A program made the translations under genes and the position numbers. This document shows positions 1 through 22,029 of a stretch of 64,000 bases of DNA, piece after piece. Each line of letters starts with the position of its first letter. Position 1 is the first letter of the stretch. The notes beneath the pieces were generated by a model, which ran no database searches, had not been told where the DNA came from, and worked only from the letters and a program-made list of their open reading frames with translations. This stretch comes from Loxodes magnus (taxonomy: Eukaryota > Ciliophora > Karyorelictea > Loxodida > Loxodidae): the NCBI GenBank assembly GCA_946699065.1, contig CAMPDV010001179.1, positions 1-64,000 on the forward strand. Reading direction: 5' to 3'.

Positions 1-3000
1 GTATAGCCTGGAAATTTATGTTAAAATGTTCATAAATTATCTTATTCACTACATTGATTAAAGTAAACTTCTGTAACATTATTTGATGAGTTCTAAGCAA
101 TTCTATATTCATATTAGCGAACTTATACTATAATTTATTTTCAATTATACTCATTTTTTTCTAAAATATTAAAAAGAACTTTAGGATCATTTTATCCCAG
201 AAAATAAGGAGATATAATATTTTAATTTGATTAGTCTAAAGAAATTCAATATTATATTTAGTGATTGTCTATAAAAAATAGATATCTTATATTATTATTG
301 GTATCTCTTAACTTTTGTTCTACTATAGAGAAAAATTCTTCCATTTGGTTATTTTATAGCAATTATATGTATTATTAGTTTTGATCTTTTACGTTTTGAA
401 AGTAATTTATAATGCTTATTATTTATGAAAATTCTTCAAGTTCTTAAAAGGAAATTAGGTAAACTAGATGAACTAAATCAAAATTATTAAGTTTATCCAC
501 AAATTCTTATTTCTAATTTTCATTTTCTAAATAGTCTCTACATAGTTCTATAATTTCTTTATTAGGTATTTTTCTAAAATTTAGTCAATTATTATTGTAT
601 TCAACTCTTTAAAAAAGCAAAATATTCGAATATTCTTTAGAACTGAAGACATGTGAGGTTGTAAAAAACATTATTAAGTTTTCTTTCTTATTTTTTTCCT
701 ATCAATTTATTTCTAGTAAATCTAGTTTAGATATTTACTCAACTCTACGTCTTTAAATTATTTAATTAACGAATTGTTATATTTCATATATTTACTTTGT
801 TTACTTTCTATCATATTTTTATCAGATCTTTTTATAAATTTAAGTAATTAAAGCATATATTATTAAATCTTCTTATGAAAATCTAAAATTTTAATTCAAT
901 TATTCATTTTCTGATTATTCTCAATCTATCTTTTATCGAATCATTTTATAAATAACTTCAAACCAATCTTCTTCCCTATCATTTGATTAATTTATAAGAC
1001 TTTTTTCAACTAACTATTTTATTTCTTATTTCATGAATTGTATTATCTATTAGATTTATTTGAAATATTTATTTTAATTTATAATTCAATCTTCTTGATT
1101 GTCATTTTTGTAATTTCATTTTCTTTCGATATAATTACATATAATTAAGCTTTATTTTTGTAAAGTTTCGTTTTTTAGTTCTTGAAGTAAATATTTTTTT
1201 CTTTCAATCAGTTTTGCTTCTCAAAACTCTTGATATTCTATTTCATTAATTTATTTTCAATCACTTAGTTTTTAATATTTTATTAGCCTTTCTTAGTCAT
1301 ATAAATTTAGTTAACTAATATCATTTTTTATTTCTATATTTTCTATCTTTCTTATATCTAAATTATCTTCTAATTACTCTAAATTATTCATAAGGGTAAA
1401 CCTTTAAGTTATTTAACTATCATATCTATAAAACTAAGTCATAAAGAATCCTCAAAATTATATTCTATACTTTATTTGTTTCCTATCAAATACATAGATA
1501 TGCATTAATATTTCATCATCTTATATCTGAATTTAATCATCCAAATAAAGCTTCAACTAGTTAAACTTATTTTCTTATATCATTCTAATAATTAGTTAGT
1601 TATCTTGTGCACTTTGATTAACTTTAGGAAACTAATTTAAAATTTAATCAAGAGATTCTTATAGTTAATCCTATAGAACATATGCATACAAAACTTAAAG
1701 GAGAGAGTAATTTCGTTCTATAAATTAAATTAAAAGCTAAGATAGATTCGAAGATTTTAAAATTTAAACTAGTTTATCAGATAAAAGTTAAATATTTATT
1801 TTAATGTATTCAGTTTAATCTTCATGCTATTTTTATTCTATGAAAATTGATATATTTTAAGTATCTTTTTTATCATCAAACATTTATTTGCTTTCTTTTA
1901 TGTTCTCTTCTATTTTTTATAAATCTTCATATAGATAATATTATCAGTCATAGCAATCATACAATTTTTTTAGGATTTCATAAATTGAAAGCTATTTTTA
2001 TTCTTTATCTATCTAAATTTCTTTTTTGCTTTGTAAATAAAATGCATTTAACTTTCCATTGAAACTCATTAATTCTGTCTTTACTATTATCAAATTTCCT
2101 TATCAAATATTTAAACTTTCAGGTTTTAGAAGCTTAAAACTCAAATTTTTTAGATCTTTTTTATTTCCTAACTTTAAATACTTTTTCTCCTATTTATAAA
2201 AATCATAAAACTCTGAATATGATTTAGTTAGTTAAATAAAATAGAGTTAATTCTAATTTCCAAAGACAAAAATATTTTTTCTCTTTTCTTTTCTTTTTAT
2301 TCATTTAAATATTTATTCTTAGATTTCTTTTAGTTATTTAATTTAGTCTTATTATATACTTGAAATTACTTCTTAAGAATTAATTGGATCATTATATGAA
2401 AACTATCATAAATTTAAAATTTTTGCTACTTTTTATTATAAAATGTCTTTAAGTATCAAAGCATATAAAACTTTTATGAATCCATAATTTTATTCCAAGT
2501 ATTTAAGCAATTTAAATTATAAATCAGAGTTTTAAATTTATTTTCACTTTTCTATTAATTTTTATTCTTATAACATCACGAAATTTTATTTAGACTCACT
2601 TAGTAAATTAAGTTCTTCCGTTTAATAAAATATGTAAAAATTTTCTTTTAAGATAACTTAGTAATTTTGAAAGCCAATAACTACTTTTTTCTTCTACTAA
2701 ATTTCTTTTTCGCTTTGGCCCCCTTTTATCTTGGATATCTGGGAATCTTCTATCTAAATCGTATTTACCAGATTTCGACTCACTTCTTCTTTTGATCCTA
2801 TATCTTGATTCTTTTTTATTTGCTTATTATTGATATTTTTAATGTTCTGGCTAGTGTCTTTTACTTGCTTTGATAGTTATTTCTGCAATTAATTTATGAG
2901 AATAGTTTCCTTTATAAAGCCTGGACTAAAATATTGATTTCTAAGAAGAAAATTAAAGGTTGATATGGTCTTTTGTTGGTAATGATTGGCGCTTTAATTT

Positions 3001-3074
3001 TGTTATATGATTTCAGATGAAAGATTTGAAGGATTGGATAATAATGTCATAATTAGATGATTTGCTTAGGACAT
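1..3074 (-). CDS. Giant protein kinase-MORN protein, paralogue A (N-terminal part, runs off left edge)
   Basis: Read with TAA/TAG=Gln and TGA=Trp, this strand gives one frame of about 1,024 codons from ATG at 3074 to the window edge. It matches the N-terminus of the gene at 44639 closely: both start with MSQ, share HLIMTLLSNP and FSPGF, and both have a Gln/Lys-rich stretch with KQVKDT. At the left edge it matches the stretch just before the kinase domain (TEVYFNQ, then PGY); the copies differ there by only about four codons of length. The start was chosen because both paralogues have ATG at the same place after A-rich DNA. The kinase and MORN regions must lie to the left of the window. The first ~1,000 residues resemble no domain I recognise. 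Family and frame are well supported; whether the gene is intact beyond position 1 cannot be seen. Confidence 0.85.
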
Positions 3075-4159
3075 TTGATTAATTTTCTTAAATATGAGTT
3101 AGATTTAAAAGCAAGGTTGATTGGTTAAATAATAAATTTAAATGAAATAAACTAAAATTTATATTAAAAGCTTATATATAAATCCTATTTTATTCTTTAT
3201 TTAATTTATATCTTTTAATCACTATAATTACTCTTATTTTATTTACTTTATTAAAATGATATCCATTTCTATCTCGATTAAATGTTTAAAAAATAGTTAA
3301 AGTCTATAATTATCTCATAGTTTAAAAAGATAGGAATTTAAAAAAGCGATTTATAAAATGTATAAAATAAATTTAAATATATAAGTAATTTTTGGTAAAA
3401 GGTTTGAATTGATTTAATTAGATTTAGTTATTTATTTTTATAAATATTTCTTTTTAATTTTTTATTAATCATATAATAATAGCTTTAATATATAACTTTT
3501 AAAATTATTAGTTGTTTTATATGATTAAACTTATGAAAAATTAAATAGACATATGAGAGAATAATAAATTACTATGAATTCAAATTAGAAATAAGCTAAA
3601 ATTAAAAATTAACTTCACTCTTAAATCAATTATATTAAACCATTTTTATAAATTGAGATATTCAAAGAAATCTTAGATAAAAATTAAAAAATTAAAGAGA
3701 TTAAATTGCTTAAAAAAGCATAAATAAATTATTAAATAAAAATAATAAAATAAAGATATTTATTATTGGGTCTATAAATTAATAATTGATAATCTTTCAC
3801 ATCTAACAATAATTATAAACAATATTATAAATAAAATATTATTAATCACTTTTAGATCTTAATTCAATTATTTTATTTCAATTTAAGTTTTTATCAAATT
3901 AAATAAATGTTAAATATTTATTTTAGATTCTAACTAAATCTTTATTAAACAATTCTAAAATTAAATTAACAAAACAAAAACATACTTTCATAATAATATA
4001 ACTTATTTCAAATTATTTACCTTTTAGATCAATAAATGTCTGTGATGCTCTTAAAAGAGTAAATTAAAATATTTCATATTCAATTTATTTTTAACTTTTA
4101 TTTTATATCATACAGAGTACAAGTACAATAAATTTTATTATTATTTATATTCATTTTTA
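3075..4159. other. AT-rich intergenic DNA
   Basis: Almost pure A/T with short poly-A and poly-T runs. It contains the presumed promoter of the minus-strand kinase gene, but I see no distinct motif, repeat or coding-like base composition. Confidence 0.6.
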
Positions 4160-4680
4160 AAATGCATTCTGGTTTCTAGTCGAACGAGTAGGTAATCCAG
4201 TGCAGTCATGTCTGCAAATACTCTTGCAATAGATGCCGCCACAAACAAGTAAGGACGGTACCATTGTGTGATAAGCCTTAATTGCTTGAGGGTTCTCTCT
4301 ATCGGTATGAGAAAGTGACTAGAGGGAACTGAAATCCAGATTTCAGAATTATCCTGATTCTACATATCGCTATTTTGACAGGAAATAGAAAACAACCAAG
4401 ACATGACTGAGATTAAAAATAATTATTACTTAGAAGAATTAACCTAATTGAGTCATTTGACACTAATATTGGAATTTTCTCTAACCCCTTCTAACTACAG
4501 CCTTTGAAAGAATTACAAGAATTTGAAGGGTGAAGGTAATCAATTTTGATTATAAAAACGGAGAGAAAAAGACAAGAAGTAAAGAGACCAGATAAAGCTA
4601 GAAAGATTTCTATCCCATTATTAATAACTAAATTTGGTTCCTTTATTTTTTCGTGGTGAATCAAAAACAGTGGCACCACG
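4160..4680 (+). mobile_element. MULE-type DNA transposase remnant, copy 1
   Basis: A G+C-richer island that aligns with 23110-23690 on the other strand. The shared parts are an ATAGATG-centred block (reading TLAIDAATNKQG here, TQTIDGTMYKYG in the other copy), a block around GAAATCCAG, and a later PFQLQ block. In the better-kept copy the order is I-D-G-T, then a Glu-Trp region, then IITD, which is the layout of Mutator-like DDE transposases. The reading frame changes at least once relative to the other copy, near 4530-4550, so this copy is dead. No terminal inverted repeats or target-site duplications could be recognised. Only the central catalytic region is visible. It lies directly upstream of a short hairpin-ended repeat at 4721, but whether the two belong to one element is unknown. 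Confidence 0.55.
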
Positions 4681-4720
4681 CTAATTTAATTAATTAATTA
4701 ATTTATATTATTACTGATTT

Positions 4721-5032
4721 AAATAGGGAGGAGCAAAATTCCAACTGAGATCAATTTAAGCTCTGTTGTTAAAAAGTATCATATATATGAAGAATAAAAA
4801 GAATTTTGGCTGAAGCACATAAAGAATTCAGAAACTGAGGCATCAAGTAAAAATATATTAAAGGATAATAAGAATTAAAGGTCGCGCTTGGTATAATTCC
4901 GATCACGGCCCTACAAAAGACATAATTCACAAGGAAATATTAGCAATGAGAAAGACTTCAAAAAAGAAAATATTTGATTTAAAAAAATGTTATTAAAACA
5001 TTTGCACGCTATTGAGACGCTACGCGCTCTGT
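4721..5032 (+). repeat. Short hairpin-ended repeat, type A, copy 1
   Basis: Starts AAATAGGGAGGAGC after a long A/T run, holds a body of ~270 bp that can be read as protein (GRSK, then PTEI), and ends with a G/C-rich hairpin at 5003-5032 (GCACGC...GCTACGCGCTCTG). The same beginning and end recur at 6911, 8528, 17954 and 21487, always on this strand. Of the three type-A copies this is the most diverged. Confidence 0.6.
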
Positions 5033-6285
5033 AATCTTAGATTTTTATATATAAATGACAAATATAATTATTAACCACCTACCATTCATCAATTTTTTTT
5101 ACTATTAAAAGCATAATTTTATTGATTAAATTATTTTAATTGAGAAATATTTAAAATATTTAACTATTTAATATAATAATAAATAGCCAAAGCCTAGGAA
5201 TTACATTAAATGTTTATAAATTTAATCTTAAATAAGGTTAAAAATTTTAATTATCTTTTCGATTATAATGTAAATAATTTATCTGAGATTAATCATTAAA
5301 CAAGAAAGAAAACAGATTAAAAAAATTGGAAGCTAATTAAAAACAATTTTCTTATAAAAAATGATTACTATTTAAAATGTTTAAAATGTAAAAATTATTT
5401 TACATTCGCATATAAAAAATGTTGATTAAGTTAATTTTTTAGAATATTCTTAACGATTTATAAAAATATAGATTAATTGAACATAATATTTAAACTTTAT
5501 AAGTAATTTGTTTTATAAACTAGATAGATTTAATAATAATAATATCTCACATAAATGTTTATTTTTTTAATTTAATAGAAATTTTAAATAATTACATCTA
5601 TAATAAAAATTAATTTTAAATTATATATATTAATATCAAATTTAAGAAATTAAAATAGTTATTTTTTATTATCTAAATGCTTAAATATTAAGAATGTAAA
5701 TAATTATCAACTATTTTCTCTTTATTTATTCAATTATTTATTTTCCAAATTTATTTTTATCTTATTTTTAGTCGTCAAACTAAACTTAATCAATAAAAGC
5801 AATTTAAAAATTAAGCTAAATTGCCAAAAAATTTAATAAATCTTAGTTGAATAAAAAAGAATAAAAAATAAATGAAATTAAGAATAATTAGTTTAAATAA
5901 GAATAATTGATAAAAATTAAATAAATATATTAAAAATATTTTTATTATTTTTAAATTATTTTAATTAAACAATTCCTAAACCTCTTAAAGATGCTATAAA
6001 ATGTATTTAATTATGAAAAAACCTAAATTTAAATAATATTTAATATTCTCATAAATCTTAGAAAATTTATGTTTAGAAATTTTTATTTACTTCATTATTT
6101 TTAGTCTGAGTTAAAGATTATAGAGTCTTAGTTTTAATATGTACCTTTTTATTTTTTTCCCTGTAAAATATTAAATTATTATATTAGTAATCAAGTTTAC
6201 AATGGAAATCGAATCTGAATATCTATAATAAGATATTTATAAGATAAATTTATATCTTAGAAAATTATGTTGCTACATATTTTAG
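5033..6285. other. AT-rich DNA without visible genes
   Basis: No coding-like composition, repeat or structure could be recognised on either strand. Confidence 0.6.
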
Positions 6286-6289
6286 AAGA

Positions 6290-6890
6290 ATATGTGATAA
6301 AGCAAACGAAGAAAGAAAACAGAAATAATAAGAAATAATAAGAAATAAATCTCAGAAGAATTTTACTGCTTTTGACCAAAAAGGAAAGAACAAATATTCA
6401 GAAAGAAATTCCATAATTCAAGAATCAGCGAATAGAATAAAAATTGGAGAAAAAACAAGAAGGACAGTGGATTTTGAGGGGAAAACAAGTATGACGGATT
6501 TACAAAGTTCTACGACATCCTTTTAGTTAGAAGAGAGCAGGAAAAATAGATATTAACTGTCAAGCTCTTCTCTAAAACTATAAAAATAATTTTATCCTTT
6601 TTATTTATTTTATATATAGTTGGATAAATTCATAATTGTAAGACAAGATTAGTAGAAACTACTCAATAAGATCTTATTAGATTTTGAAACCCAAGTTTGA
6701 AAATGCATAAAATATTGTTCAATCACCTTAGAATATGCGAATTTATAGGTTATAATCAAGTAAAATTTATATAAGTGAGTTAAAAACCTATCACTTGGAA
6801 ACAAGAGTTGTATGCCTAATACTAATTGGATCGATAAGATGGAGTTGGATAATATGTATTATTTATGAGCTTAAATGACTAGAGATATTG
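6290..6890 (+). mobile_element. Decayed coding islands of a mobile element (type uncertain)
   Basis: Two A-rich, moderately G+C-rich islands (about 6290-6570 and 6620-6890) that read as Lys/Gln/Glu-rich protein. The first contains a short Phe/Lys/Gly stretch vaguely like the zinc knuckle of the elements at 22030 and 59206, but without the cysteines. The second has W-K-Q-E-L followed by an Asp/Gly-rich stretch. They lie immediately upstream of the type-A repeat at 6911. No family could be assigned. It could also be a dead host gene. Confidence 0.35.
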
Positions 6891-6910
6891 AATTGCTTAT
6901 AATTTAATGT

Positions 6911-7200
6911 AAATAGGGAGGAGAATTCTTTACACTGAAACAATAAAATCTCTTTGAAATTAAGACTATCGTATGAAGACCAATTCGAGAATCCAGCAGG
7001 AGTCAAAAAATGAAACAGTATTGGTCTAACGAATTTAAAAGGATGCTTAGACATTTAGGTCTCCTTGAATGGCATTCCGATTCATTCAATAGAAGACAAG
7101 AACGATTAAGGGATGCTAATGCATAGGAATTTCCAGAAAAATTTGTATAAACTAAAAATTTAAATAAAAACTAAATAATATTGAGGTTCTTCGCGCTCAA
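6911..7200 (+). repeat. Short hairpin-ended repeat, type A, copy 2
   Basis: Begins AAATAGGGAGGAG and ends at a TTGAG...CTCAA hairpin (7181-7200) with GGTT and GCGC in its loop. The body aligns with the copy at 8528 around the peptide LGLL-x-x-HSD. In that block three codon differences are synonymous (TTG/CTT, TCT/TCC, GAC/GAT), which argues that the repeat once coded for protein. Confidence 0.6.
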
Positions 7201-8229
7201 AATTTAAGTTTTTTAAAGTGAAAAAAATTTAATTTCTACCTTTGCTAATATAATTTTTTTATATCTAAAAATTTCTCGAAATTTTATTAAGTTATTAATT
7301 TTATTATATATGAAAATTTGTTCTTTCTTCAGCAACTTTTAAATTTGTTTATTTTTCAGTAAAATCTCAAAGAAATTTTTTTATTTAATTTTATTAATAT
7401 TTTCCTTATTCTAAGATCAATTATTAATATAAAATTGAAATATTTTTTTAAGATAGCTCGAAAAAAATTATTTTATTATTTAAAAATTAAAAAATTTAAG
7501 TAAATAAGGTAGGGTTCTTATCTAATATTTATATCATTTAATAATTAATTTTGTATTAATTAATCTTTTAAGCCTAATTTTTATTTAGAATTACATTTAT
7601 TTAATTTAAATGTAAATGCCTCTATAACTTGATTTTGATATATAATTTATTAAAAATTATCTTTATAGATATTTTATTTATTTGTTAAACTTATTCGTTT
7701 TATTTATATTGCAACTATTTTAATATATTTTCAATTTAATTTTCTAAATTATTAAGAGAAAAAAAATCCAAAACTAACTATAAATTTATTTTATTTAACT
7801 AATAAATAAAAATTGTATTTACAACTAGATTTAATAAAACCTTAATTCTCAACACATAATAAATCAGCATTTTACTAATAAATTTTACACAAAAATTTAA
7901 TAAATAATATTAAAAGTTTTATAGAATAGGAAAGTAGTTTAAAGTATTTATTTTCAGATTTAAAACTTTCTATCTAAAATAAAAATAGTTTAAGTTTTTT
8001 TCAAAAATTAGATTGTTTATTAAATATTTTAAATATTAATGAAAATTTATATTTTACTATTTTTTAAGTCTAAAATTTTATTTTTACACTAATTTACTTA
8101 TTTAAATTACTACTTATTTATCTATTATTGATACTTCATTATTTTATTTTATCAAATTTTATAAGCAAATTTTTAATCAAATGCAATATAAAGTTTTAAG
8201 TAAATGAAAAATGTTATGCTAATAAATTT
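7201..8229. other. AT-rich DNA without visible genes
   Basis: Only A/T runs. Nothing recognisable on either strand. Confidence 0.6.
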
Positions 8230-8520
8230 CCTCTCCAAAGTAGGAATTCACTAGTTTAAAACCAGTTCAATTATAGGGTAATACTACTTTCAATGATTCA
8301 GCTTCTTCTTCCATATTTTACCACCGCGTGTCGGCTAAAAAGAGGTTATATCTTTTCAAATTTGCTTGCAAATTTTCTAATTTTAATAGCTATTCCTTCA
8401 GAAGTAACATGCGTTCTACAGATATAACATTTCTTTCTAAAAATGCTTTTTTTGGCTTACATTCTCTCTATTTCTTCTGGATTGATTGATTTATCTCTTG
8501 TGGTTGTTGTTATATATATT
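8230..8520 (-). mobile_element. Coding-like island, likely element fossil
   Basis: The strand opposite to the neighbouring repeat reads as a Leu/Lys/Glu-rich, coiled-coil-like peptide (for example ERMLLLKEQLLKLENLQ). A second frame gives a C-Y-I-C-x-x-H motif, so the true frame is undecided. Family unknown. It abuts the type-A repeat at 8528. Confidence 0.3.
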
Positions 8521-8527
8521 ATATTTT

Positions 8528-8838
8528 AAATAGGGAGGAGCAATCCTCTAACTGAGATTAGCTTAAATTAAAGTCCAAGGAATTACTTCAGGAGCGACAA
8601 CTGGGCAAGAATCTCGGCAGGAGTCGAGCAGGAAAGAACTGAAGGCATTGAGTAACGGTTGATGAAAAGAGCCAGACGATTAGGTCTCTTGGGGGATCAT
8701 TCTGACAATGCCCTATTAGAAGAAAGAATTTCCAAAAGAGGTAAGCTCTGGAGGAAATTTTCAATGAGAAATTTTTATTTTATTTAAATTAAATTAATTT
8801 AAAGAGCTGCACATCATCAATAGTGTGTCGCGCTCTTT
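8528..8838 (+). repeat. Short hairpin-ended repeat, type A, copy 3 (best preserved)
   Basis: Begins AAATAGGGAGGAGC. One frame runs through the body as GRSNPLTEISL, an Arg-rich stretch, then LGLLGDHSDNALLEE. It ends in a nested hairpin at 8801-8838: outer stem AAAGAGC/GCTCTTT, inner stem GCACA/TGTGT. The protein-like reading and the hairpin are both seen in other copies. The function of either is unknown, and I recognise no protein family. Confidence 0.65.
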
Positions 8839-8979
8839 AATCCAATTTGTTTATTCTATTTAGTTTAAGTCTACTTATGTTTTATTAATTTTTTTCTTTA
8901 TTATAATTAATTTTTTCTTTTTTTCTAAAATCTTTTTAAATTTTTTGTTGCATTATTCACAAGTATTTATTTAGTTATT

Positions 8980-9420
8980 CTTTATTCTTCTCATATTGCT
9001 CCTTTTATTTTTTACAAGGTGTATGCAAATCTATTTTCGTGACTTGAATATCGATTTTATATTGTATCTATTTCAATTATTTTTGCAGTTCCATTAAAGT
9101 TCTAATTAGTTTGAAAATCATTTTTGAGTTTAATTTTAGTCCATTCCTATAAATTGTATTTCGTTAGGTAGCCCTAACTGATATTTGTCGTGAGATTTCT
9201 AACGCTAATCCCTTCTTCTGCCATTTTTTGATTTTTTTGAGATATTTACAATTGTTTAGTTGATAGGTGCTAGTACTTGCCTTCTTGCTTTGGTGAGGTG
9301 GATTTTTTAATACTTTCTGACAAATGTTTCTAATCTTTTTCTTCTCTAAATACAGCGTGAATCCTCAGGTAAATCTCCATATTTTTTATAAACAAAAATG
9401 TTAAATAAATAAACGAATTT
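8980..9420 (-). mobile_element. Coding-like island, likely element fossil
   Basis: The minus strand reads as a basic, Lys/Gln-rich protein, including LEKKKIRNICQKVLKNPPHQ and a later Gln/Lys-rich tail. Base composition differs clearly from the surrounding A/T sea. No domain recognised and no clear start or stop. It may be a fragment of the coiled-coil/zinc-knuckle elements or of a dead gene. Confidence 0.35.
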
Positions 9421-10440
9421 AAAAGGGTAATTTGAATTAAATATTTTAAAGGGTTATCAATAATATTTAAATAGGAAATATTATTATATTGAAGATTATT
9501 AATAGCAATTTTAAAATTAAGATGTCTCTAAATATTTATTTCTAGAATTATTAAAATATTTTAAGATTTATATAAGTAATTATTAATATAATCATATTTT
9601 AGAAAAAGGAAAGTTTAATTTTGAATAGACAAAGAATAATAATTTATACAATCTATTAGTTATAATTTAAAAATTCTACATACTTATAAACTAACTTAAA
9701 GATATATCTTTAATTTTATCAAATTTTATTAAAAAAATAAATTCCATAAATTACAAAAAATTAAAGTTAAATAGATAAATAATAAAAATATATATTACTG
9801 CTATATAGAAATTCGAAATTAAGAAATACAATAATTTAAATTTATAAAACTAAAAAATTTAGTTTTTTCTATAAAAATAAATTTGAAATATTTTTATTTT
9901 TAAGTAAGAAAAAAATTATGCAATGTTATTTAAATATTTTTTCTTAAAAATTAGCCTTAAATTTAATTTATTGTTTATTTTTTTTAATAAATTTCTTTTT
10001 TACTGAATAAATTTATTTATTTAAATATTTATTAGCTTTTAAGATTTTATTGTTATTGGTTTTTAAATTTTAAACTAAGATTTTAAATAAATAAATTTTA
10101 TAAATAAAAATAAAGCAAAGGATTTTTTATTTCAGTTATAAATAATTCAAGTTTTAAATTATATTTCATACTATTTTTATGACCTAGAATGAAAAAAGAA
10201 ATCTACAAACCTTAAACTTTTATTTTAATGCAAATTTTTTAATATAGTTTTTTATTTAACTTGATTTAGGACATTTTTATTTCAAGATAATTAAAAGATT
10301 ATGTGAGTTTACTAGGAATAATAAGTTGCTTTTTATTATAAATAATAGAATGCTTATATTTTGGGTTTACTTAATAGTTCTTAATTTAGTATTTTCTTTA
10401 TACCATTTAATAATAATATATCCTCAAAATAGGTAACAAA
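9421..10440. other. AT-rich DNA without visible genes
   Basis: Nothing recognisable on either strand. Confidence 0.6.
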
Positions 10441-10599
10441 ACTTTCCCTATTCATCTAAGTAATTCATACTTTATGCTTCAATTAGCAAGAAAAAATGTT
10501 TTAAGAGTTTATAACTTTAAACGTAGTTGAAGAGAAGTAGAAGAAGAAATCGCTTTAATAAAATGTTAATGAAATGAACTTAATGATATGAATTAGTTA

Positions 10600-10990
10600 C
10601 TTCGTTTAATTATGTTCATAAAGTTCAAACTTCGTTGTTTTCATCTTCCAACTCTTCCCCGTTGCTTCTTGTACTTTCTTTTTGTTCTTCTTTAGGCCCC
10701 AATTATTTATTTGTATTTTGTCCTACAATTTCAATTCTTTTTTTTTGTAATTTCCTAAGGAAAATTTTATTTGTATGTTTGCATAAATTTATTTTTGAGA
10801 AGTGAACTGATAGTTTATGTAGAGTGTATCATAAGTCATTAGTTTTTCAAAGTTTTTCCAGAAATTTACCAGAAAGATTCATAAATGAATCCAAATAGTA
10901 GAAAAATTGGGGATATGCTTAAATTTATCTTTTCTTCCACATGGACAGAGCACGTTTTCTTCAAGATAATGACGCGTAAATAAATAGTAT
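10600..10990 (-). mobile_element. Coding-like island with a Cys-Pro-Cys-Gly motif
   Basis: The minus strand reads YLEENVLCPCGRKDKFKH followed by an aromatic-rich stretch and then a Lys/Gln-rich segment. The C-P-C-G...K-H arrangement resembles a small zinc-binding motif, and the order (motif plus basic coiled coil) recalls the zinc-knuckle elements elsewhere in the window. Frames cannot be fixed by stop codons in this genetic code, so this stays tentative. Confidence 0.3.
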
Positions 10991-11319
10991 TGAAAATTTT
11001 AAGTCTAAGTGCGCAACTTAAAAATTGAAATTATTAATTTCCTGCATTTCTTGTTAAATTTACTATAATTTATAGCAGGAATTTCTGAAGTCCTTCAAGT
11101 TGATCTCTGAATATCTATACAGAAGACATGTCTCTATAGCGTTGTTAACTATACAAGCCTATCATAAAATAATTTATTTAAACGATATATTTATATGAAA
11201 TATTGCCAAACTATATAGAGTTACTATCACTAGTTCATGAAACTTAAATAAAAACTTAAAATCGCACCTTAAAAAATTTAAATGGGAAAACTTATTCAAA
11301 TTAAAAAAGATAACAGATA

Positions 11320-11340
11320 TTTAAGGTTGCGGCGCTAAAA
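11320..11340. repeat. Short hairpin, GGTT...GCGC loop type
   Basis: TTTA/TAAA stem around a loop with GGTT and GCGC. The same layout occurs at 7181-7200, where it closes a type-A repeat, and at 13280-13301. It may mark the 3' end of an element whose body has decayed. Confidence 0.35.
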
Positions 11341-13279
11341 TAAATTAATTTTATTTTATTTCTATACAAAATTGTCTACCCACTTTATTATACTATTTCT
11401 TCTAACTTTTTTATCTATCATACTAAAATCAAAATTTTATAATGTATTTAACTAATAAACTAGCAGGCAGTAACTAATAAGCTTTGTATAAATAAAAATA
11501 ATGCAAATAAGCTTATAAGGTAAATAATTTTATGCTATACTAGCTAGTTAGAAATAATTAAGTATCATAATTATATTAAGCTTTATATAACTTAAATAGT
11601 AAATAAATCAAATTAGAGTAAAATTGTCCAGGAAAATAGTAATAAAAGCAAAAAGCAAAAGATTACTATTAACTGATCTTTATTTTTAATATGCATCTTA
11701 ATTGTAATTAAAGATGTTTATATAAGTTTCGAAAAAATTAAAAAAAATAGTAAATAATAAAGTTTAATATTACAGTGTAAATTTTATTGATGAGATAAAA
11801 AAGAATCTAAAGTTAAATCTTTTTTGCTTAGATGAATTTAATAAACCTCTTAAATGATTTTTAAATATAAATCTTTATCTATCATTTCATTTAAATAATT
11901 TTTTTTAATTCTTTAAGTTATAGAATTAATATTCATGTCTCATATAAAACCCTAAAAATTTTATAAATTTGGTTTACTAAAATTGGGAAAGTTTAGCAAT
12001 TAATAAATTATTTATTTATATAGTTTAGTTTACTATTTTTATTTATTAAGATGCTAATTAATGATAGAGCTTATATAACTATCTAAAACTTTTTTCTAGT
12101 ATTGTTTCATTAGCTTAGATTTATCTTAAAAGAGAAAAATATTTCATAATAATAGTCAATTTTATTAATTATTTTTAATTAAGAACATAATTATTACAAA
12201 TTATTTTTATTATTCTAAATTTAAAATTCTTATCTAAAAGTACCTTAGTAAAGGGTAGTTAAATTTTTATAGATAAAAAAAATTTTGAATTTAATAAAAT
12301 CTGAAAATTTTTAAATCTAGTTTAATAATAAAATTTCTTAATATTTTATTTGCACATTTATGCTCTATTTAATAATAATAAATTAATATTTTAAATGCTT
12401 CTTAATTATTTGGTATGATTCTTTTTATAATAAACTTAACTATGAATAAACTTATTTAAAATGCATATATTTTATTATTTTGAATTAAAATAATAAAATA
12501 TAAGATTATTCTGCTTTTACAAATATTTATTTTAATTTTATTGTAAATTATTATTTTATATAATTACTATAATTTTTAATTTTATAATTATTTTCATAAA
12601 ATAATTATTTTTAATTATAAACATATATATTATAAGCAAAAATTTATTTTATAATCTTAAATAATGTAATTTTTAAATTACATTTCTTTTTATTTTTCTA
12701 TTTATTTTTATTTATTTAATAAAATCTAATTTATATGATTTTGTGGAATTTTTAATATAAATAAAAAAAATAGTTATCTTTATCATCGAATAATTACTTA
12801 TATTTATATAAAATATTTATTTATAAAATTAAACTTTTAAAACTTGCAATCTTAAATCTATTAAATAATTTAAAAATGTTGCCATAAAGTATCCAATAAT
12901 TATTTAGAATTCATATTGTTAATTTAAAAGAAAATTAATAATTTTTAATTTATTCTTATTAAATTTATAATTCTTTCTATAAACTTGCTTTATTTCTATG
13001 ATATTGAAATATTAAATTTATAAAAAAGTTATTTTCTGAACATATTTCAGAATATTTTAAAATTTTTATTATAATTCGCTTTGATAAAGTTTAGTAAGAA
13101 AAAATAATTAAATTATTTATAAATAAAAATTTTGCTAAAAAATAACACATAATTAAGAAAATCTAAATATATATCCAATCAAATAAACTTTAAAAATTAT
13201 TAGGGTTATAAACTATTTTTCCATTAAAATGTTATATTTATATTAAAAATTTAATTATCTCTAAATTTATTTAAATAAT
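11341..13279. other. AT-rich DNA without visible genes
   Basis: Among the most A/T-pure parts of the window. No feature recognised on either strand. Confidence 0.6.
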
Positions 13280-13301
13280 TTTAAAGGTTCAAGCGCTAAA
13301 T
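13280..13301. repeat. Short hairpin, GGTT...GCGC loop type
   Basis: TTTA and TAAA arms flank AAGGTTCAAGCGC. Compare 7181-7200 and 11320-11340. The surrounding DNA shows no other trace of an element. Confidence 0.35.
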
Positions 13302-13639
13302 TAATTTTATTAAATTAATAAATATAGCAATAATAATTTATTTTTTACATTAAAATTGCTTATTTATAGTTTCAGTTAAATCTTTAAATGAGCTTAATTA
13401 ATAGTTACTCGAAGATTATATATTTATGAAGAAATTAAATTTAAATTTATATTTTTATTTTATTTCTAATTTTATATTAATTGTTTTATTTGAACCAATA
13501 TAGATAGTAAAAAAATTTGGCTAATAACTTTAGTTTAGCATCTAATATTGTAAAATTAAATTAAATTAAATTAAGAGGTCTTTTAGGAAAATTAATTTTT
13601 TATACAAATTTTCAGTCTTAAAATTGAGTATGTCCCCAA

Positions 13640-14790
13640 ATCCCTAATAATTCACTTATAGGATTCAGCATTTTCTATGTTGAACTTATTTCTTCATATT
13701 TTTTCATCATAAGTTGGATAAATGATAGTAAATTTTTTAATCTTTTTGCGGATTATCTAGTTTTTTCTGAATATTCTAGAGGTGCTTATATTACTTTAGA
13801 TGTATGTGTTCTTCTTGAATATTCGAATCTTAGTTACATTTTTTTAATTTCTGATGGGTCATTTATTATATTTAAATTGGGTTGTTCACGGTGTCTACAG
13901 ATCACTTCTGAAAAAATTTTAAAGTCTGAATTTGACTTTTTACGAGCTCTTGCAATCATGTGTTTCGTCTTATTAACCTTCCATCTTGTATTTTCTAGTT
14001 CTTCTAATTCCAAATCTATTTTCCTATAAACAACTCCATTATCTATGCATTAGATCTAATTTTTCTTCTCCTTATTTTTTTATTAAATTTGTTTCTGTCA
14101 TAATTATTCCTTGACTTTTCATAGTTAATCCAAAAATGATTTTTACTTTTACAATAATAGAATATTTTCTAAATCTTAATCTTTTTTTTCTTTGATTCTT
14201 GAGGAGTTTCTCAAACTCCATCTTTTCATTCTGTTTTAGCAAGGTCTGTCTCTTCTAACTCAGCAAATATTTTTAATCTAAAAATTTAAGCTTGGATCTT
14301 CACCACTTGGGAGTTTTTCTAACTGAATTACTATTGTTAGTTATTCCAAATAAAATCAATCTTTCACTTTATGTTGGCCATTCTGAGGTGTCTTGAAGTC
14401 AGCACTAGATCTTTTCTGTCAACTTCTCATTCTCCTATCTAAGCTTCCTGACCTCTTTCTAGAGGCTTAGTATCACTTTGATGAGCTGTTCCATATTCAT
14501 CTGATCAAAAGAATCGGATTCTTGACCTCTTGATCCAAAGCCGTCTCTTGTTTACTAGGTTTTTCCTTTTATGTTGGCGTTAGTGCATGCGCGACTTTCT
14601 GGAGCTGTTTCTGCTCTGCTTATTGTAGCTACGTACCAGGCTACTACTTTTTAGGAGCTAAATAAAATCCCTTTTTATAACCCATCATATTTTTTTGGAT
14701 CGCTTAGTTGAGTTGTTAAAGTTATTGCTACGCCAGTTATAACTAAATTGACTTCCTTTTCTTTACCCTTATTTCTTATTATTTTGCTTA
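13640..14790 (-). mobile_element. Coiled-coil/zinc-knuckle element, broken
   Basis: Minus-strand island of about 1.15 kb. In order it shows a Gln/Lys-rich N-terminal part (MMGYKKGFYLAPKK), a clear coiled coil (MEQLIKVILSLQKEV, then KLRQENEKL), a degenerate CCHC knuckle (YYCKSKNH; the insertion at 59206 has YYCKSKWH), and a charged C-terminal part (ELENTRWKV, IARARKK). The arrangement is that of a LINE ORF1 or gag-type nucleic-acid-binding protein. The copy is broken in at least one place. No reverse transcriptase, terminal repeats or target-site duplication seen. Confidence 0.55.
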
Positions 14791-15102
14791 ATCAGCATCT
14801 AGTAATGTAAAAAGAATTGAGTATGCAGACTTGATATAAAAAAGGCTCAGTGGGTTTTAAAAAAAATTTTGACTTGGATATTTTAATATTTAACATATTA
14901 TTATATGTAAAAAAATAGCACTTAGAATTTAATATTATTATATTTAAATATAATAATCATCAATTTTTACACATTATTTACTTAAATGATTTCAAGGATT
15001 TATATTTACAATTTTTAATTTATTTATTTCAAAATTAATTTAAGATAAATATTAAAAAATTAATTATTTCTTTTTTATATAAAGAATTAGTAAAGTGAAA
15101 GG

Positions 15103-17775
15103 TCAATTATTGCTGTGAAAGTTTATATTTCCTATACTAAAATCTTCCATACTATGAGTTTCTATAGAAAATGGTCCATTCAAAATTTTTATTTATTTGA
15201 ACTTTTATTTTATCATCTTTAAATAGTTTTCGCTGACTGTATTCTCACATTTAAACTTCAAAGTTTTAAGATTTTTTAATATAGGATATGCAATTCCATT
15301 TTCATCATAAATTGGAAAAGTTTCTTCATCAGCGTTTACAACTCCAACTAAATCTAATATTCTTAAGTGTTAGCTACTTTTTAATATCTAAATAATTTGT
15401 AATTTGTTTAATATCATTTCTTTAAGATATAAGCCCATTAGTTAATTTATTTTCACTATTTCTTAGATCCAGTTATAGTCTTCGTTTACCTAAACTTATT
15501 CTAAATAAAGAGTTTGTAAAAATTAGCAGTTTTATCTTATAGTGCTAAAAATTTCACCTTTTATATTTTTAATATTGGCTAATGAAATTGACCTAAGCTT
15601 CCTACATTTTTAAAATATTTCTATTAAAGTATCTTCAGATATTTAATCCATGTCAGATAAGCCAATTAAAAGATATTGCTATCCATAATTTCCTATTTAT
15701 TATAGGGTTTAATTTTTAATTTATTTTAACCCTTTAAGTTTTAGATGTTTTAAGTTAGGCGTTTTTTATAGTAAAGTTACTAAACATTCATCATTAAATT
15801 ATTAACAGTTTGAAATATAAATTTCACTAAGATTCTGATATGATGTCTTAAAAAATTCTAAGAATAGTCTATTAGAGAATTCTTAACTTAGCTCTATTTC
15901 ATGTAAATCTCTATTTCTAAAAACTTGCAAAAGTAAATCAGAATTTGCATGCCAATGAGAGTCTATTATTTTTAAATTAGGACATAGATTAATATTTTAC
16001 TCTATTATTTCTTTCTTAAACCCTTAGATTATTTATAACTAATGTCCTTTTTTTTCTAAATAATTCTTTATAAAATCTTTATTCAGAATTTCACTTTCTA
16101 AACACAGAGACTTCAAGTTAATGTTTAAGCAATAGTTGTTTAAAAATTCTCCAGTAATTCCACGTTAGTTTTCTAAAAAATTAAAACTAAATATTTCTAA
16201 TTATTCTAAATTGTTTAACCTTTATATGAAAAATAAATCTTTATCTTCTATATCACCATGCAGCACTATTTTCTTTAAACTTGAAGGAAATAAAAAGCTT
16301 GTTAAAGTAAAGCTACAAAATAAATTATAGATATAAATTTCTTGTAATAAAAATGTTTATTGCATTTTTAAATTTTCTCATTATTTGTTTAAAAGACACT
16401 GAATTAAAGAAAAGTGAACTTAATCAGCCATTTATTAAGAAAATGGGATAGAATTTATAGATAATCTTTATATATTAGAATTAGCTATTTGTTTTAAAAT
16501 TCACTCTGTTTTATTCTTTTATATCTTAGCATTTCCTTAGTAATTCTTAATACTCAGAAAATTATATTAGTATTTGAAGTTATAAAAGAACTTATTTACT
16601 CTTTGTAAGTTGCAAATGCTTTTTAAGTTTAAAAATTTGAAAATTTCACTTAAAATATTTTTTCTTTACCAAAAATTTATTTTCATTTTGTCTGTTTTGA
16701 ATACATTTTTCCAATATTCGTTATAGTCATTATTTTGTTTTATTTAGGCTGATTAATTTTATTATAGATTGTTTTTGATGTTATTTTTTAAGCTTTTCTC
16801 ACATCAAAAGTTAGAGCCATCAAATATTCCACCATCTTTAAAAAAAAATATTCCGTTACTTTGTATCTAATTATCTTTTCATTATCCTTTGAATATATCT
16901 CCATTTTTAAATATAAATTCCCCATTTCCATTTGTATAATCGTCTAATAGCTCTCCTTAATATATTCTTCCATCTGCATATTAATAAATCCCTTTGCCTT
17001 GCCTTCTTCCTTAAAAAAATTATCCTTCATATTTTGACCCACTTTTATAAAGATCAATTCCAAAGCCATGGTTTTTATCATCAAGTCAATCTCCATCATA
17101 TATCAAGCCATCTGAATAATAACATACTCCTCTTCCTTATTTTTTTCCTTCTACCCATTATGCTTGATATTTGTTTCCATTTTTAATCTAAAGAATTCCA
17201 AATCCATGAAATTTATCATTAAAAAAATCTCCTTCAAAAATACTTCCATCAATCATTCAATAAATTCCCTTGCCTTGCATTTTACCAAAGTTTCATTATC
17301 CTTCATATTTATCTCCATTTAAATCCTTGAAAATTCCATATCCATGCCTTTTATCTAAGAGCCACTCTCCTTCATAAAATAGTCCATTTTTAAATTATAA
17401 TTTTCCTTTACCTGAACGTTTTCCATCTAATCATTATCCTTCAAAAATAAAAACATTTAGTTATTAATAAATTCCATATCCATGAAATTTATCATTAAAA
17501 AAATCTCCTTCATACACTCTTCCGTCCTTTCAGTAAAAATTTCCTTTTCCTTATTTTTTATCTTCTATTCATTATCCTTCATATCTATTTCCATCACTGT
17601 AAGTAATAATTCCTCTTCCGTGCTTTTTACCATTATGCTGTTCTCCTATATATTCGTTTCCATCTTCGAAATTTTTTGCCTCTTAGACATGTTATTTGGT
17701 CATAATCTATGATTCTAAATAAGTCTATTAATTTTGTAGTTTCTAACGATGAGAAAATATTTTTAAGCAACCCAT
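15103..17775 (-). CDS. MORN-F-box-LRR protein, 890 residues, acylation-type N-terminus
   Basis: ATG at 17775 and TGA at 15105-15103 are exactly 890 codons apart in one uninterrupted frame. It begins MGCLKIFSH, a strong N-myristoylation (Gly2) and palmitoylation (Cys3) signature. Twelve full MORN repeats and one partial fill about residues 35-345 (YEGQW...KKQGKG, YEGEWLLDKRHGYG). An F-box-like segment follows near residues 370-405 (ILSEIFKFLNLKSICNL). Leucine-rich repeats of the F-box type run to the end (CPNLKIID, TPNLKHLKLKGL, CRKLRSISL). MORN tryptophans are spelled TGA in repeats 2, 4, 6, 9 and 12 and TGG in 5 and 8. F-box proteins usually bring substrates to SCF ubiquitin ligases via Skp1; MORN repeats bind membranes or partners. 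Inferred role: a membrane-tethered substrate receptor. A decayed relative of the LRR part lies at 31860. Confidence 0.88.
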
Positions 17776-17953
17776 TTTATAATAATTATAAGGTAATAAA
17801 TGTTTATATTATATAATAAATATTATAATTAGATTTCTATATTTTATGTTGTAAAGTTTATTATTTATCTTTACTTATAAATCTTTAATCTTTAATCTTT
17901 ATAAATTACCCTAACTACCAAAACTTTATTTATTATTATATATATACATTTTT

Positions 17954-18303
17954 AAATAGGGTAGAAAGCCCTTTCCTTCGGATACTTCTTGGAGGCCCAG
18001 CAAGGCAACAAAAAAATTAGCACGGACGGCGGATAAATCGAAGGAAGAGAAACCAATAACAAGAGAAGGAAGATTCAACAAGCTGGAGAACTCTGAATTC
18101 CAAGAGGAAACTTTCTTCATCATAAGTCGGGGAAAGATGGGCCCGTAATCGCATATTGCATCCTATGCTTTGGAAGGAAAAATTATAGGGATGTACTGCA
18201 GGAAGAGAAAACAAGGATAGAGAAACCCATAAAATTTTATTTTTCGACATTAAATATAATAAATTTAAAGAGCTGCTCGCCAACGAGAGTGCTACGCGCT
18301 CTA
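17954..18303 (+). repeat. Short hairpin-ended repeat, type B, copy 1
   Basis: Begins AAATAGGG, ends in a nested hairpin at 18267-18303 (outer AGAGC/GCTCT, inner CTCG/CGAG). One frame of the body reads as protein (GELWIPRGNFLHH, then GPVIAYCILCFGRKNY). It shares TCTTCATCAT, GTAATCGC and TCCTATGCTTTGGA with the copy at 21487. Its beginning and end match the type-A repeats but the body does not. It sits 180 bp upstream of the F-box gene start, pointing away. Confidence 0.6.
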
Positions 18304-20125
18304 TAATCCAATTAATTTATTATATAATTTCTTTGCTTTTATCTCTTTTGACTAAAGTTAAATATGCATTATCCTTCATACTAATAATAATTTTTGATAT
18401 TATGACTTATTGGTAAAATAAAAGAGAATCTAAGAAGTAATATACTTATAAGTAAATATTGATAGGTTATTATATTTAACTAGTATTAATGATTAAAATT
18501 AAATATTGATTTACATTTGATTTGGTTTCTTAAGAATATTAATTTATTTAAGTTGCATTCTTTATTTTATACTTAATAATAATTAAACATTTATCTTTTA
18601 TGTTTAATATAAAAATATTGTAAATTAAATATGAAATATGAGAAACATATTAGTGACTAGTCTATTAATAATTAATTTAAATTATTAAAATACATACATT
18701 TGATATATTACATTAAAGCCTTTACTTATTAACTTATTTATTTCTCTTTATTATCTTTATTTTCTTATTATTTGTAAATTGATAATAAGATTGTTATGAT
18801 ATGTTTCTAGCTTTATGGTAATAAATATTTATATATATCTATTTTATTTAAAGCATTTTATTATAATTTTTTAATGTTTATTAATTAACATCTATCACTA
18901 TATTATAAAAATAATTTAGCTAAAATATTAATCATTTCACTGCTATTTATAATTAACTAAAAGTAATTAGTTTAAGCATTTTTTTATTAAATTTTATTTA
19001 AAAATAGCTATAAATAAATATATGCATATAAATAAAATATGATAAATACATATTAGGTAATAATATTTATACTTTTTAATTCAATTATTAAATATCTCAT
19101 TACATTATCAAATTTCTCTATCTATATTTTTATTTAATGCTATTTCTTAAATATTAGTTATGCATTATGTAAACTATCTATTTAAAAATAATATTTCAAA
19201 TAATATCAAACTATTATTAATAATTACTACTAGTATTCAAATCATCTTATTAAGTATAGTTTACTTTAGATTATCTATTAGTAAATATTTCTTTTACTCT
19301 CTAAATTTTCTTAGTTTCACTAAAGATTAAATTAGTTTCTTTTAATTAAATTTTAATTATATTATTTATTAAGTTACTATAAATAAGATCCAACCATAAA
19401 AACATAGCAAAGCATTTAGATATTTATAATATCCTTATTTATAATTATTACACCTTATTTATTTTATCATATTAAACTATTTACTATTTTTTAATTAGAT
19501 TAGCAATTACAAGCTTACAATTTATAATTTTTTTCTAAACTAAATTAATTAATTTATACTAGATTTAGATATCTACTATTAAAAACTATGAAAGTAACTA
19601 TAACAAATAGACTATATTATAATATTAGATATTATTAATAAAGAATATGCTAAGTTATGAATATAAGTTTATAATTAATTAAAGCTATTATAATTTAAAT
19701 AAGCCTTATATCTAATAATTGTAAATAAAACTAGTAAGTTTATTTTATTTAATAATTATATAATTAATTTAAATTACCTATATTTAAATTATTCAAATAT
19801 AGCTTATTTATTCCTAACTTAAAATATTAAGGTTAAGTACTTACAATTTCCAAGCTATTTACATCTCATATAAATTAATTTTAATACTTTTTAGCATAAT
19901 TTTTCGATGTGCAAGCAAAACTAACGTATAGTCTAAAAAGTGCTACTATGAAAGGTAATTATGACAGAATACATAGTAGATATAAATTAACCTAAATTTT
20001 AATTTGAGAAATTAATTTTCAATCAGCAGAATAGTGTAAAATTCTATTACCTAATTATTTATTAAGTTAAAATAAAGTTTGCATTTTATTAGAAGTGTAA
20101 AAAGTTTTTAAAATTTGTAATGTCT
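18304..20125. other. AT-rich DNA without visible genes
   Basis: No coding-like island, repeat or structure recognised, apart from a slightly G+C-richer spot near 19900-19960 that I cannot interpret. Confidence 0.6.
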
Positions 20126-20129
20126 CCTT

Positions 20130-20960
20130 CTTCTTATAATTTATTTCTCTCCGACAGTAGTTCTTGTTTCCTGCGTCAGATCTTCCCATCTTCCGATGAA
20201 TAAAAAGCTCTTGCCTTTTGTAGATTGAACTCTAGAATGCTCTTCTTATTTTCTTTTGTTGAGGGCATTTCCGTCATAGATTCCATATACTTTTGCAGAT
20301 GATTATTTTTTGATTGCTTTTGTTTTTTTCTGTTTTTATTATTTACTTTTCTCTATTTCCATTAGAATATAACCATTTCCATTTGAAAATTGTCTAAATT
20401 ATTCTAGTTTTATTTCAATCTCTGTATTAAATTAGTCTTGCCTCGCCCAGTTTTTTCGTCTTGCTCTTGAAAATTCCAATATCTTTTTGCATTATCTGAT
20501 TTTTTCTCTTCCCATTTATTATTCTGATATGTTTCTTCTAAATTTTTCGTCGAAATGAAGATCTTCATTTTCAGTCGGATTCCATATTTTTTCTTTTTGT
20601 TGCATTTGGTCTTCTTCCGAAGTTCAAAATCTTATTATCGGTTTTCATATTAGATCTAGAATCTGAATTTAATTAAAGCTTTTATTGTTCTTTCATCTCA
20701 GAAAGTCCAATTTGTTCCAGCTTAAAATCAGCTTATTCCGAGTTATTAATCTTATTAGTTTCTTTTAAAATTCTTTGGCAAAGTTACAGTATCTCTCACC
20801 TAGAGCTCTTTTCTCTTTTCAGGTGTTAAATTAGAAGAATCCACGTCTATGCAGGTTTTATAGCCTGGTCCTCTTTATTTTGGGCATAAACTTTTCCGCG
20901 TTTCTCATTCTACAAAAGAAATCTACCTTTAAGAATTTCCATTTAAATTCTATTTACTAT
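20130..20960 (-). mobile_element. Coiled-coil element fossil, probably same class as 13640-14790
   Basis: The minus strand reads as a long Lys/Glu/Gln-rich protein (for example IEIKLEQFRQF, REKIRQCKKILEF, KGKSFLFIGRWEDL). A degenerate zinc-knuckle-like stretch (KRGKVYAQNK) lies near its upstream end at about 20900. Composition and charge pattern match the other zinc-knuckle elements, but the cysteines are not clear, so family membership is tentative. Broken. No flanking repeats recognised. Confidence 0.4.
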
Positions 20961-21179
20961 CTAAACTTTATTTATTAACGATATTACATAAAAATAGATC
21001 TGTATTATATAAGTAAAATAATTATTATTTTATGCAATAACATCCAAAATATACGGGATCAATTATAAATAAAATTTCAAGCACGAAAAATAGAAAAATT
21101 TGTATTTTGTAATTTACATTTAAATTAATTTTAAATTTACTTATTATAATTAAAAAGATGGTGAGATTGACCTTCTGAA

Positions 21180-21430
21180 TCATACTTTCTGGTTTTATGG
21201 CTAGGAACAAGTTCCTTTCCTGTCGCTGAGAAAATCCCTGGTCAAAGCAACCTTTGCAAGGGAACGCCTTCCTTTTGATTATCCACTCCTGGTAGGGGCT
21301 TGAAGCCTGGCTGCCCATAGCGATGGAGCTCCCTGGCAGCTGCTTTTCGAAAGCAACATGATATCCCCGTTATCCCATGAAGGGAGTGTTAGGGTCGTTA
21401 AACTGCAAGAAGTTGCAGTCCAAAACTCTT
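21180..21430. other. G+C-rich cluster of perfect short hairpins; candidate structured RNA locus
   Basis: About half of these bases are G or C, more than twice the window average. Perfect stems occur one after another: GGAAC/GTTCC (21204-21215), CAAAG/CTTTG (21243-21256), GGCT/AGCC (21297-21307), GCTGCC/GGCAGC enclosing smaller stems (21310-21340), TGCTTT/AAAGCA (21341-21355) and ACTGCAA/TTGCAGT with a GAAG loop (21402-21419). Both strands can also be read as protein, since nothing is a stop in this code. The minus strand gives a C-x-x-C pair (AFPCKGCFDQG). It does not resemble rRNA, tRNA, SRP RNA, RNase P or snRNAs as far as I can judge by eye. It lies just upstream of a type-B repeat. Confidence 0.4.
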
Positions 21431-21486
21431 TAAGTTGAAATTAATTAATTAAATTTACTTATTAAAGTTATTACATAATTTAATTT

Positions 21487-21763
21487 AAATAGCATGGACC
21501 TTGTCTCTAAATGGTACGAGAAGAATTCCCTAAAGATGAACTGACTCAGAAGCAAACCTTCTAAGTGTGAGAATAGACTAATATCTTCATCATGGGTTGG
21601 AAATTTACCTGTAATCGCCTGTTGGCGTCCTATGCTTTGGAGAATTGAAACCACAACCTTGCTCACAATAAGAAGAGAAGATACAAAGGGAATATTGGGA
21701 ATTTAAAGACTTTAAAATTGACTTCTTATAGTGCTGCACACCAAAAAAGTGCTACGCACACTT
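21487..21763 (+). repeat. Short hairpin-ended repeat, type B, copy 2
   Basis: Begins AAATAGCATGG and ends at a hairpin (21730-21763: AGTGC...GCAC with inner GCAC/GTGC). Shares three blocks with 17954-18303, but small length differences shift the frame between blocks, so this copy looks dead as protein. Confidence 0.55.
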
Positions 21764-22029
21764 TAATCAAAGTTTTTTTTTATAATAATGAAATATAAAA
21801 GTCAAATTAAAGATGAAACTCTACAATCTGCAAAATACTATTTATTATTTTCTAAATATTTATTCATTTTCTTTTAGTTATATGACTCATATTATTTATT
21901 AAGAAATTATGCGTTTAATAGTTAAGCAATTTTAAGATAATAAATATTATAATTTTTTAAGGAAAAATGATATTATTTTCTTAGATCTTAAAGATCTTTC
22001 TGCTTTTTTATTTTATTCTTATTAAGAAT

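Follow-up and report, generated by a model that had tools for sequence, protein, structure and literature searches.

What kind of unit would carry the same start and the same hairpin end around unrelated bodies? The question is raised by the first 64,000 nucleotides of contig CAMPDV010001179.1 of Loxodes magnus (C1179:1-64000, here the window), in which a sequence-only reading had described five short elements (e1 to e5, in order) and put forward a promoter-plus-terminator gene cassette, a non-autonomous element recognized by its ends, or short genes with a 3' structural signal. Our analysis makes it very likely that e1 to e5 are old copies of several non-autonomous retroelement families resembling short interspersed elements (SINEs), which are mobilized in trans by a long interspersed element (LINE) through a shared hairpin. 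The tail is joined to at least four bodies and to the end of a LINE, the copies are dispersed and have no coding signature, and one insertion lies at TTATTAA. Below, C plus a number denotes a contig and L plus a number a fetched locus, and genome-wide counts refer to an assembly of 705,730,643 bases in 7,843 contigs. The macronuclear assembly of the species is described as comprising 706 Mbp, with tandem chromosomal rDNA and an ambiguous stop/sense code (PMC11441545). In the assembly analyzed here, an 18S/5.8S locus looks like that of a ciliate.

Five Related Elements in the Window

The five elements are present where they had been described, all on the + strand; a single orientation has 1 chance in 16, and genome-wide the strands are equally represented. 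The type A copies are e1 (4721..5048), an old copy with a decayed tail directly 3' of the end of another LINE class, e2 (6911..7213), the most decayed of them, and e3 (8528..8855), whose hairpin tail is intact. Type B is represented by e4 (17954..18326, tail 18265-18326) and by a second subfamily, e5 (21487..21781, tail 21726-21781). All start with AAATAG; the longer common start AAATAGGG holds for four of the five, e5 (21487) having AAATAGCA instead. With profiles built from copies of the A3 and B1 types (e3 and e4 belong to the training set), the head of e1 was matched at 4704-4758 (E 3.8e-6) and its tail at 4978-5048 (E 8.5e-6), the head of e2 at 6898-6939 (E 1.8e-4) and its tail weakly (E 1.8), and the tail of e5 at E 3.6e-7. 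The closing hairpin described for these elements takes its canonical form, among the stretches folded, in e3 (z -2.81) and e5 (z -2.74); e1, e2, and e4 adopt other or weak folds (z -0.19, -1.33, and -0.85), as decayed copies would. The e3 tail (8784..8855, +) consists of the hairpin GAGC..GCTC and TTTAATCCAATTTGTTTATT, and was aligned with 27 other type A tails, a good many of which come from duplicated loci.

All five elements are themselves repetitive in the genome, with remote copies at 68-91% overall. Scoring the best 40 of 679 first-look candidates for e1 gave at least 13 additional copies at 90-98%, most of them within duplicated segments, along with remote copies at 69-80%. For e2, all 28 of 28 candidates were scored, 13 of them being additional copies (91-98%) and 14 remote matches (68-81%). 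Remote copies of e3 match at 81-83% and have unrelated flanks (best 40 of 2,193), and those of e4 match at 90-91% (best 40 of 2,774); the copies scored for e5, itself excluded, match at 85-90% (best 40 of 789). Elements e1 to e3 belong to a single type within which they have diverged, and a 34-nt stretch of body is common to e4 and e5 at 85%.

The five also lie within a large duplicated segment (window 4712-21775), whose order and similar spacing recur about 105 kb further along C1179. Among the matches listed, C407 holds e1 to e3 five times and e4 and e5 once, and partial segments occur on C262, C2467, C832, C4454, C3425, and C1744.

Genome-Wide Families with a Common Tail

The co-occurrence of the two ends extends far beyond the window, as the sequence-only reading required: AAATAGGG followed by 273-333 bases and GCTACGCGCTC gave 400 + 399 matches (799 exact), against 0 + 0 for the reversed control. 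The 20-base tail word GTGCTACGCGCTCTATAATC was matched 2,713 + 2,718 times (control 0 + 0), and some of these 5,431 matches must come from LINE copies and from other body types, whose tails contain the same word. A B copy consists of a unique flank, often TTATTA with a variable A/T stretch, TTTTAAATAGGG, the body, TTTAAAGAGCTGCGCACCAACGAGAGTGCTACGCGCTCTATAATCCAATTTATTTATTTA, and again a unique flank; the layout of A copies is similar, the 5' TTTTAAATAGGG being common to both. The length of the A/T stretch ahead of the head varies among otherwise similar B copies. Where flanks were read (A3 and B1 types), they are unrelated, groups of duplicated loci excepted. In lengths, exact matches, and flanks the families thus have the short, dispersed, high-copy character of SINEs.

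Two unrelated bodies is a correct description of the window; outside it, at least two further types (C and D) carry the tail, giving at least four largely unrelated bodies with a similar 3' hairpin tail of about 60 nt that ends in (TTTA)n. The head and tail profiles also detected tails in the sequence flanking the fetched loci; 22 of these additional tails, read with their upstream sequence, were sorted by eye into nine A-type, one B, four C, and eight D bodies, some of them from duplicated loci. A and B elements measure 277-350 bp, D roughly 430 bp, and C roughly 490 bp, and the heads of C and D lack AAATAGGG. The tails of the D family lie, for example, at L034 897-969, L060 2511-2581, and L048 1331-1398. 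Compared by BLAST (E 1e-3) as single representatives of each type, the elements match one another around the tail only: B1-C at 92%, B1-D at 82%, C-D at 79%, A3-B1 at 76%, A3-C at 78%, B2-B1 at 77%, and B2-C at 78%, with no match at this cut-off for the representatives A3-D and B2-D; B1 and B2 additionally share a body stretch. Type C contains an internal 62-nt duplication at 87%. We also noted a stretch of about 60 nt, starting with CTTCATCA and ending with CTTTGG, once per type B subfamily (window 18115-18175 and 21585-21645) and twice in type C (L058:2062-2550), where it is the duplicated stretch. Only inspection by eye and a motif scan brought out the likeness of B to C; BLAST at E 1e-3 did not join the two there.

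The tail is a bulged hairpin followed by TATAATCNAA and (TTTA)n. Over 67 distinct tails, which a profile of A and B copies had detected and aligned, the 10-pair stem has 88.9% standard pairs, against 10.7-63.3% in slid versions. Double changes in the stem occupy 13 cells (shuffle mean 5.2; 0 of 500 shuffles reach 13). Among 23 tails less than 86% alike, the stem is 81.5% paired and eight cells hold double changes. The clearer signal of the stem is pairing, not double change. Conservation of the stems, on which the earlier proposal had staked itself, is thus seen in these tails.

The Same Tail at the End of a LINE

Reverse transcriptase (RT) domains (RVT_1) were scored for the best 150 of 3,403 first-look candidates; about 2,700 RVT_1 copies have been reported for the assembly (PMC11441545). 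In-frame TGA, TAG, and TAA are present in the 150 scored matches. Of four 3' regions read among these 150, three carry the tail 3-8 nt past the closing TGA (E 6e-18 to 5e-16), as detected with a tail profile built without these three sequences (L090, L091, and L092). In L090, 3' of an RVT_1 match on C413, the frame closes at TGA 760-762, and the tail follows at 771-827 (E 6.4e-18), with (TTTA)n and then other sequence 3' of it. L091 (C614; 97% match to L090) has the tail 8 nt past the TGA (E 5e-16), and L092 (C504; 87% match to L090) has it 3 nt past (E 3.7e-17). The C413 tail folds as a single hairpin interrupted by two bulges, of 1 nt and 3 nt (z -3.02), and over 62 nt the e4 tail has 90% identity with the LINE tail. 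The short elements therefore end, as SINEs do, in a region shared with a LINE and in a simple repeat, (TTTA)n; a 3' stem-loop common to both partners is also the trait of stringent-type LINE/SINE pairs. Of the sequence-only proposals, the non-autonomous element recognized by its ends is supported for the 3' end, the tail being that of the LINE; the recognition itself we infer.

Two LINEs of Loxodes magnus, rnd-1_family-27 and -19, are very probably the autonomous partners or kin of these; they are described as 5-6 kbp long, with RVT_1 and Exo_endo_phos_2, in about 3,000 copies each (PMC11441545). On C5131 and C20, RVT_1 matches recur in head-to-tail order every 2,532 bp, as though part of a LINE had turned into a tandem array.

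Insertion Sites and Flanks

At L057 a B element lies antisense within a D element. Among empty D copies, the five in register read GAATTAGTTATTAAGT (L048, L034, L052, and L066) or GAATTATTTATTAAGT (L050), a sixth (L060) being out of register in the comparison; the filled site reads GAATTAGTTATTAA-ATATTTTAAATAGGG ... CCAATTTATTTATTTAAGTC. The empty copies identify TTATTAA as the target sequence; ATATTTT does not belong to it. For the assembly as published, 504 repeats are reported to overlap with indel polymorphisms (PMC11441545).

Among 64 head-tail pairs, 31 have independent flanks. TTATTA occurs within 40 nt upstream in 23 of these 31 (background 9.8%), and TATA at -36..-6 of AAATAG in 27 (background 31%), compared with 7 of 31 at -60..-36 (background 24%); both motifs were chosen after viewing the same flanks, making their p-values optimistic. 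In four of the 31 copies the start lies no more than 60 nt behind a further tail of the same type; in two others it follows a motif of the tail of the other LINE class, which in L024 is recognized by a short likeness only.

Coding, Promoter, and RNA Tests

Substitutions are spread evenly over the codon positions (119/118/102 in 26 B copies, 185/153/157 in 21 A copies), and indels are multiples of three in 4 of 24 cases (B) and 5 of 39 (A). Coding constraint is thus not visible in A and B copies, in keeping with the noncoding nature of SINEs. A slice of e4 stays open if only TGA stops (120 aa), a coding reading that the substitution and indel patterns do not bear out. With indels that are not multiples of three in 20/24 and 34/39 cases, with even substitutions, with hundreds of exact head-tail matches, and with copies in unrelated flanks, neither the short genes with a 3' structural signal nor the promoter-plus-terminator gene cassette is supported. 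Changes from the majority are AT-biased in the fetched A and B copies (in B1, G>A 135 and C>T 91 vs. A>G 50 and T>C 8).

A tRNA, 5S, 7SL, or other known-RNA head was sought with Rfam and ARAGORN, and none was credible; two weak, unrelated Rfam matches among 17 loci at relaxed E (1.6 and 0.49) lay far below gathering scores and were disregarded. A conserved fold of the body was likewise rejected for type A (15 copies, eight consensus pairs, none with double changes), in an alignment that missed even the tail hairpin. Against shuffles, the whole element folds no better in e4 (z 0.85) and moderately better in e3 (z -2.11).

Weighing the Explanations

Several results count against mobilization of SINE-like elements by this LINE. 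Searches of eight representatives for Pol III A and B boxes (simple patterns) and for tRNAs (ARAGORN) gave none, and neither did Rfam for the window at gathering scores, although degenerate or external Pol III promoters could have escaped these searches. As no Pol III promoter, tRNA-like head, or credible Rfam match was found, the transcription step is unsupported. Copy-specific target-site duplications are not evident in the 31 copies, the longest common word of a copy's own flanks averaging 7.97 against 7.99 in permuted flanks (p 0.54), and the single resolved site (L057) duplicates exactly TTAA, or 7-8 bases with one indel. The structural signal has its own limits: slid stem versions also hold 4-18 double-change cells, so that 13 is not above all of them, and the number of pairs with a double change is reached by 29 of 500 shuffles. 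LINE 3' regions were readable in four cases only, with 560 to about 1,180 bases unread between the RT match and L090, L091, and L092, and the L090 frame has only a sub-threshold zf-RVT match (E 0.063); Pfam gave nothing above its curated cut-off in L090 or in the three + frames of window 1-4700. The assignment to a LINE therefore depends on position, on the closing frame, and on how similar the three are to one another. Finally, L093 (C76), of another RT class, is without the tail in its 341 bases, in a fetched piece that ends before the 3' end.

The tail also speaks to the alternatives. Internally deleted derivatives that keep both ends of the LINE, with AAATAGGG of A and B as its 5' end, would account for the LINE tail, for the 5' TTTTAAATAGGG common to A and B, and for the few more bases that type C shares with the end of the LINE open reading frame (ORF; matches from L090:756); the different 5' ends of C and D, however, and the lack of mutual BLAST matches (E 1e-3) outside the tail among the A to D representatives mean that they cannot all be deletions of one LINE, and we regard this origin as improbable. 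Less likely still, in our estimation, are families of structured noncoding RNA genes that have a promoter of the TATA type, use a 3' hairpin as processing or termination signal, and were spread by duplication. Such genes would fit the TATA in 27 of 31 copies at -36..-6 and not at -60..-36, and the conserved 3' hairpin, yet they do not agree with unrelated flanks, insertion into another repeat, a tail belonging to a LINE, unconstrained indels and substitutions, or an A body without a supported consensus fold (0 of 8 pairs with double changes, type A only).

Least probable of all are non-autonomous DNA elements with hairpin ends, whether Helitron-like, miniature inverted-repeat transposable elements (MITEs), or IS200/IS605-like. 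Helitrons are defined by a 3' CTRR end behind a hairpin and by insertion between A and T. Different bodies between conserved ends and a 3' hairpin would suit elements of this kind; the 3' end here is, however, a variable (TTTA)n and not CTRR, the tail belongs to a LINE, and the single resolved site is at TTATTAA. As for MITEs, the ends are not complementary, no terminal inverted repeat being seen by eye between TTTTAAATAGGG and the tail. A Loxodes repeat family labeled Unknown/Helitron-2 does exist, although the genome paper deems helitron annotations likely spurious (PMC11441545).

Proposed Mechanism and Implications

Mobilization of these SINE-like elements by the LINE would follow stringent-type LINEs, whose protein binds its own stem-loop; the binding, nicking, priming, and transcription steps are our inference. 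The LINE protein would bind any RNA bearing the tail by its 3' hairpin and nick AT-rich DNA, where a target TTATTA/TTTATT could pair with the (UUUA)n end of the RNA and prime reverse transcription (target-primed reverse transcription). Such priming would explain both TTATTA ahead of most copies and the stacking behind other tails: insertion sometimes behind an existing tail would produce a head-to-tail order. New bodies might arise when unrelated transcripts gain the tail, for example by template switching. We consider more tentatively, as a rather doubtful extension, that the LINE hairpin tail is a portable mobilization tag gained repeatedly by unrelated non-Pol III RNAs, with the target supplying a TATA-like promoter; TTATTA/TTTATT or an earlier tail as target would then set the new copy behind a ready-made TATA-like stretch.

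If LINE mobilization is correct, it puts a name to some of the many unclassified repeats of a ciliate that is reported to be without extensive DNA elimination, and suggests parasitism of a LINE tail via a defined hairpin in a ciliate. Several bodies on one tail, together with a second LINE class with another hairpin, would make tail recognition testable in a distant eukaryote, and the TATA-like stretch before most copies raises the question of how heads that look promoterless are transcribed.

A Second LINE Class and Other Features of the Window

Just before e1 lies the 3' end of a different LINE class (4572..4700, +), with its own hairpin CGTGGTG...CACCACG (z -2.77) and an AATT-rich tail. Its assignment comes from L093, which lies 3' of an RVT_1 match (C76:839768-840541) and whose end matches window 4572-4633 (83% at the DNA level), L026, and L046 at 83-87%; in these three remnants, the hairpin CGTGGTG...CCACG and CTAATTTAA follow shortly 3' of the matched stretch. 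No RT domain was found by Pfam in the three + frames of window 1-4700. From these three remnants, the two LINE classes appear to have two different hairpins. In L026 the second-class tail directly precedes an A element, as it does before e1.

The window is AT-rich (GC 15-29% per 2 kb). Positions 50000-53200 form a repetitive region in which the strands are extremely skewed (GC skew 0.66 at 50-52 kb) and open frames of repetitive sequence run to great length.

Comparison with Known Systems

A LINE-dependent short element is a known kind; several unrelated heads without a recognizable Pol III promoter on one ciliate LINE tail are a variant of it. The literature searched describes no SINE in Loxodes, and the main text of the genome paper does not contain the word (PMC11441545). 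A zebrafish LINE needs its own 3' stem-loop, which its protein binds (PMC4176376), and in stringent-type LINEs deletion or swap of the stem-loop abolishes retrotransposition (PMC4176376; review PMC3747384). As in the stringent-type pairs, eel UnaL2 with its SINE and zebrafish ZfL2-1 and ZfL2-2, the short elements of Loxodes share the 3' tail of a LINE. Unlike those pairs, their heads are not recognizable as tRNA, 5S, or 7SL, at least four bodies stand on one kind of tail, the LINE is that of a ciliate, and its recognition of the tail is putative.

In Entamoeba, EhSINE and EhLINE share their 3' end. The short ones are likewise LINE-dependent elements of a protist (PMC2996970). Among ciliates, Paramecium tetraurelia has LINEs with endonuclease and reverse transcriptase, and noncoding repeats regarded as putative SINEs (PMC5405496). 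These were so named as being repeated and noncoding, with no shared LINE tail reported in that account (PMC5405496), whereas the Loxodes elements share the tail of a LINE and occur abundantly in an assembly that is very probably macronuclear.

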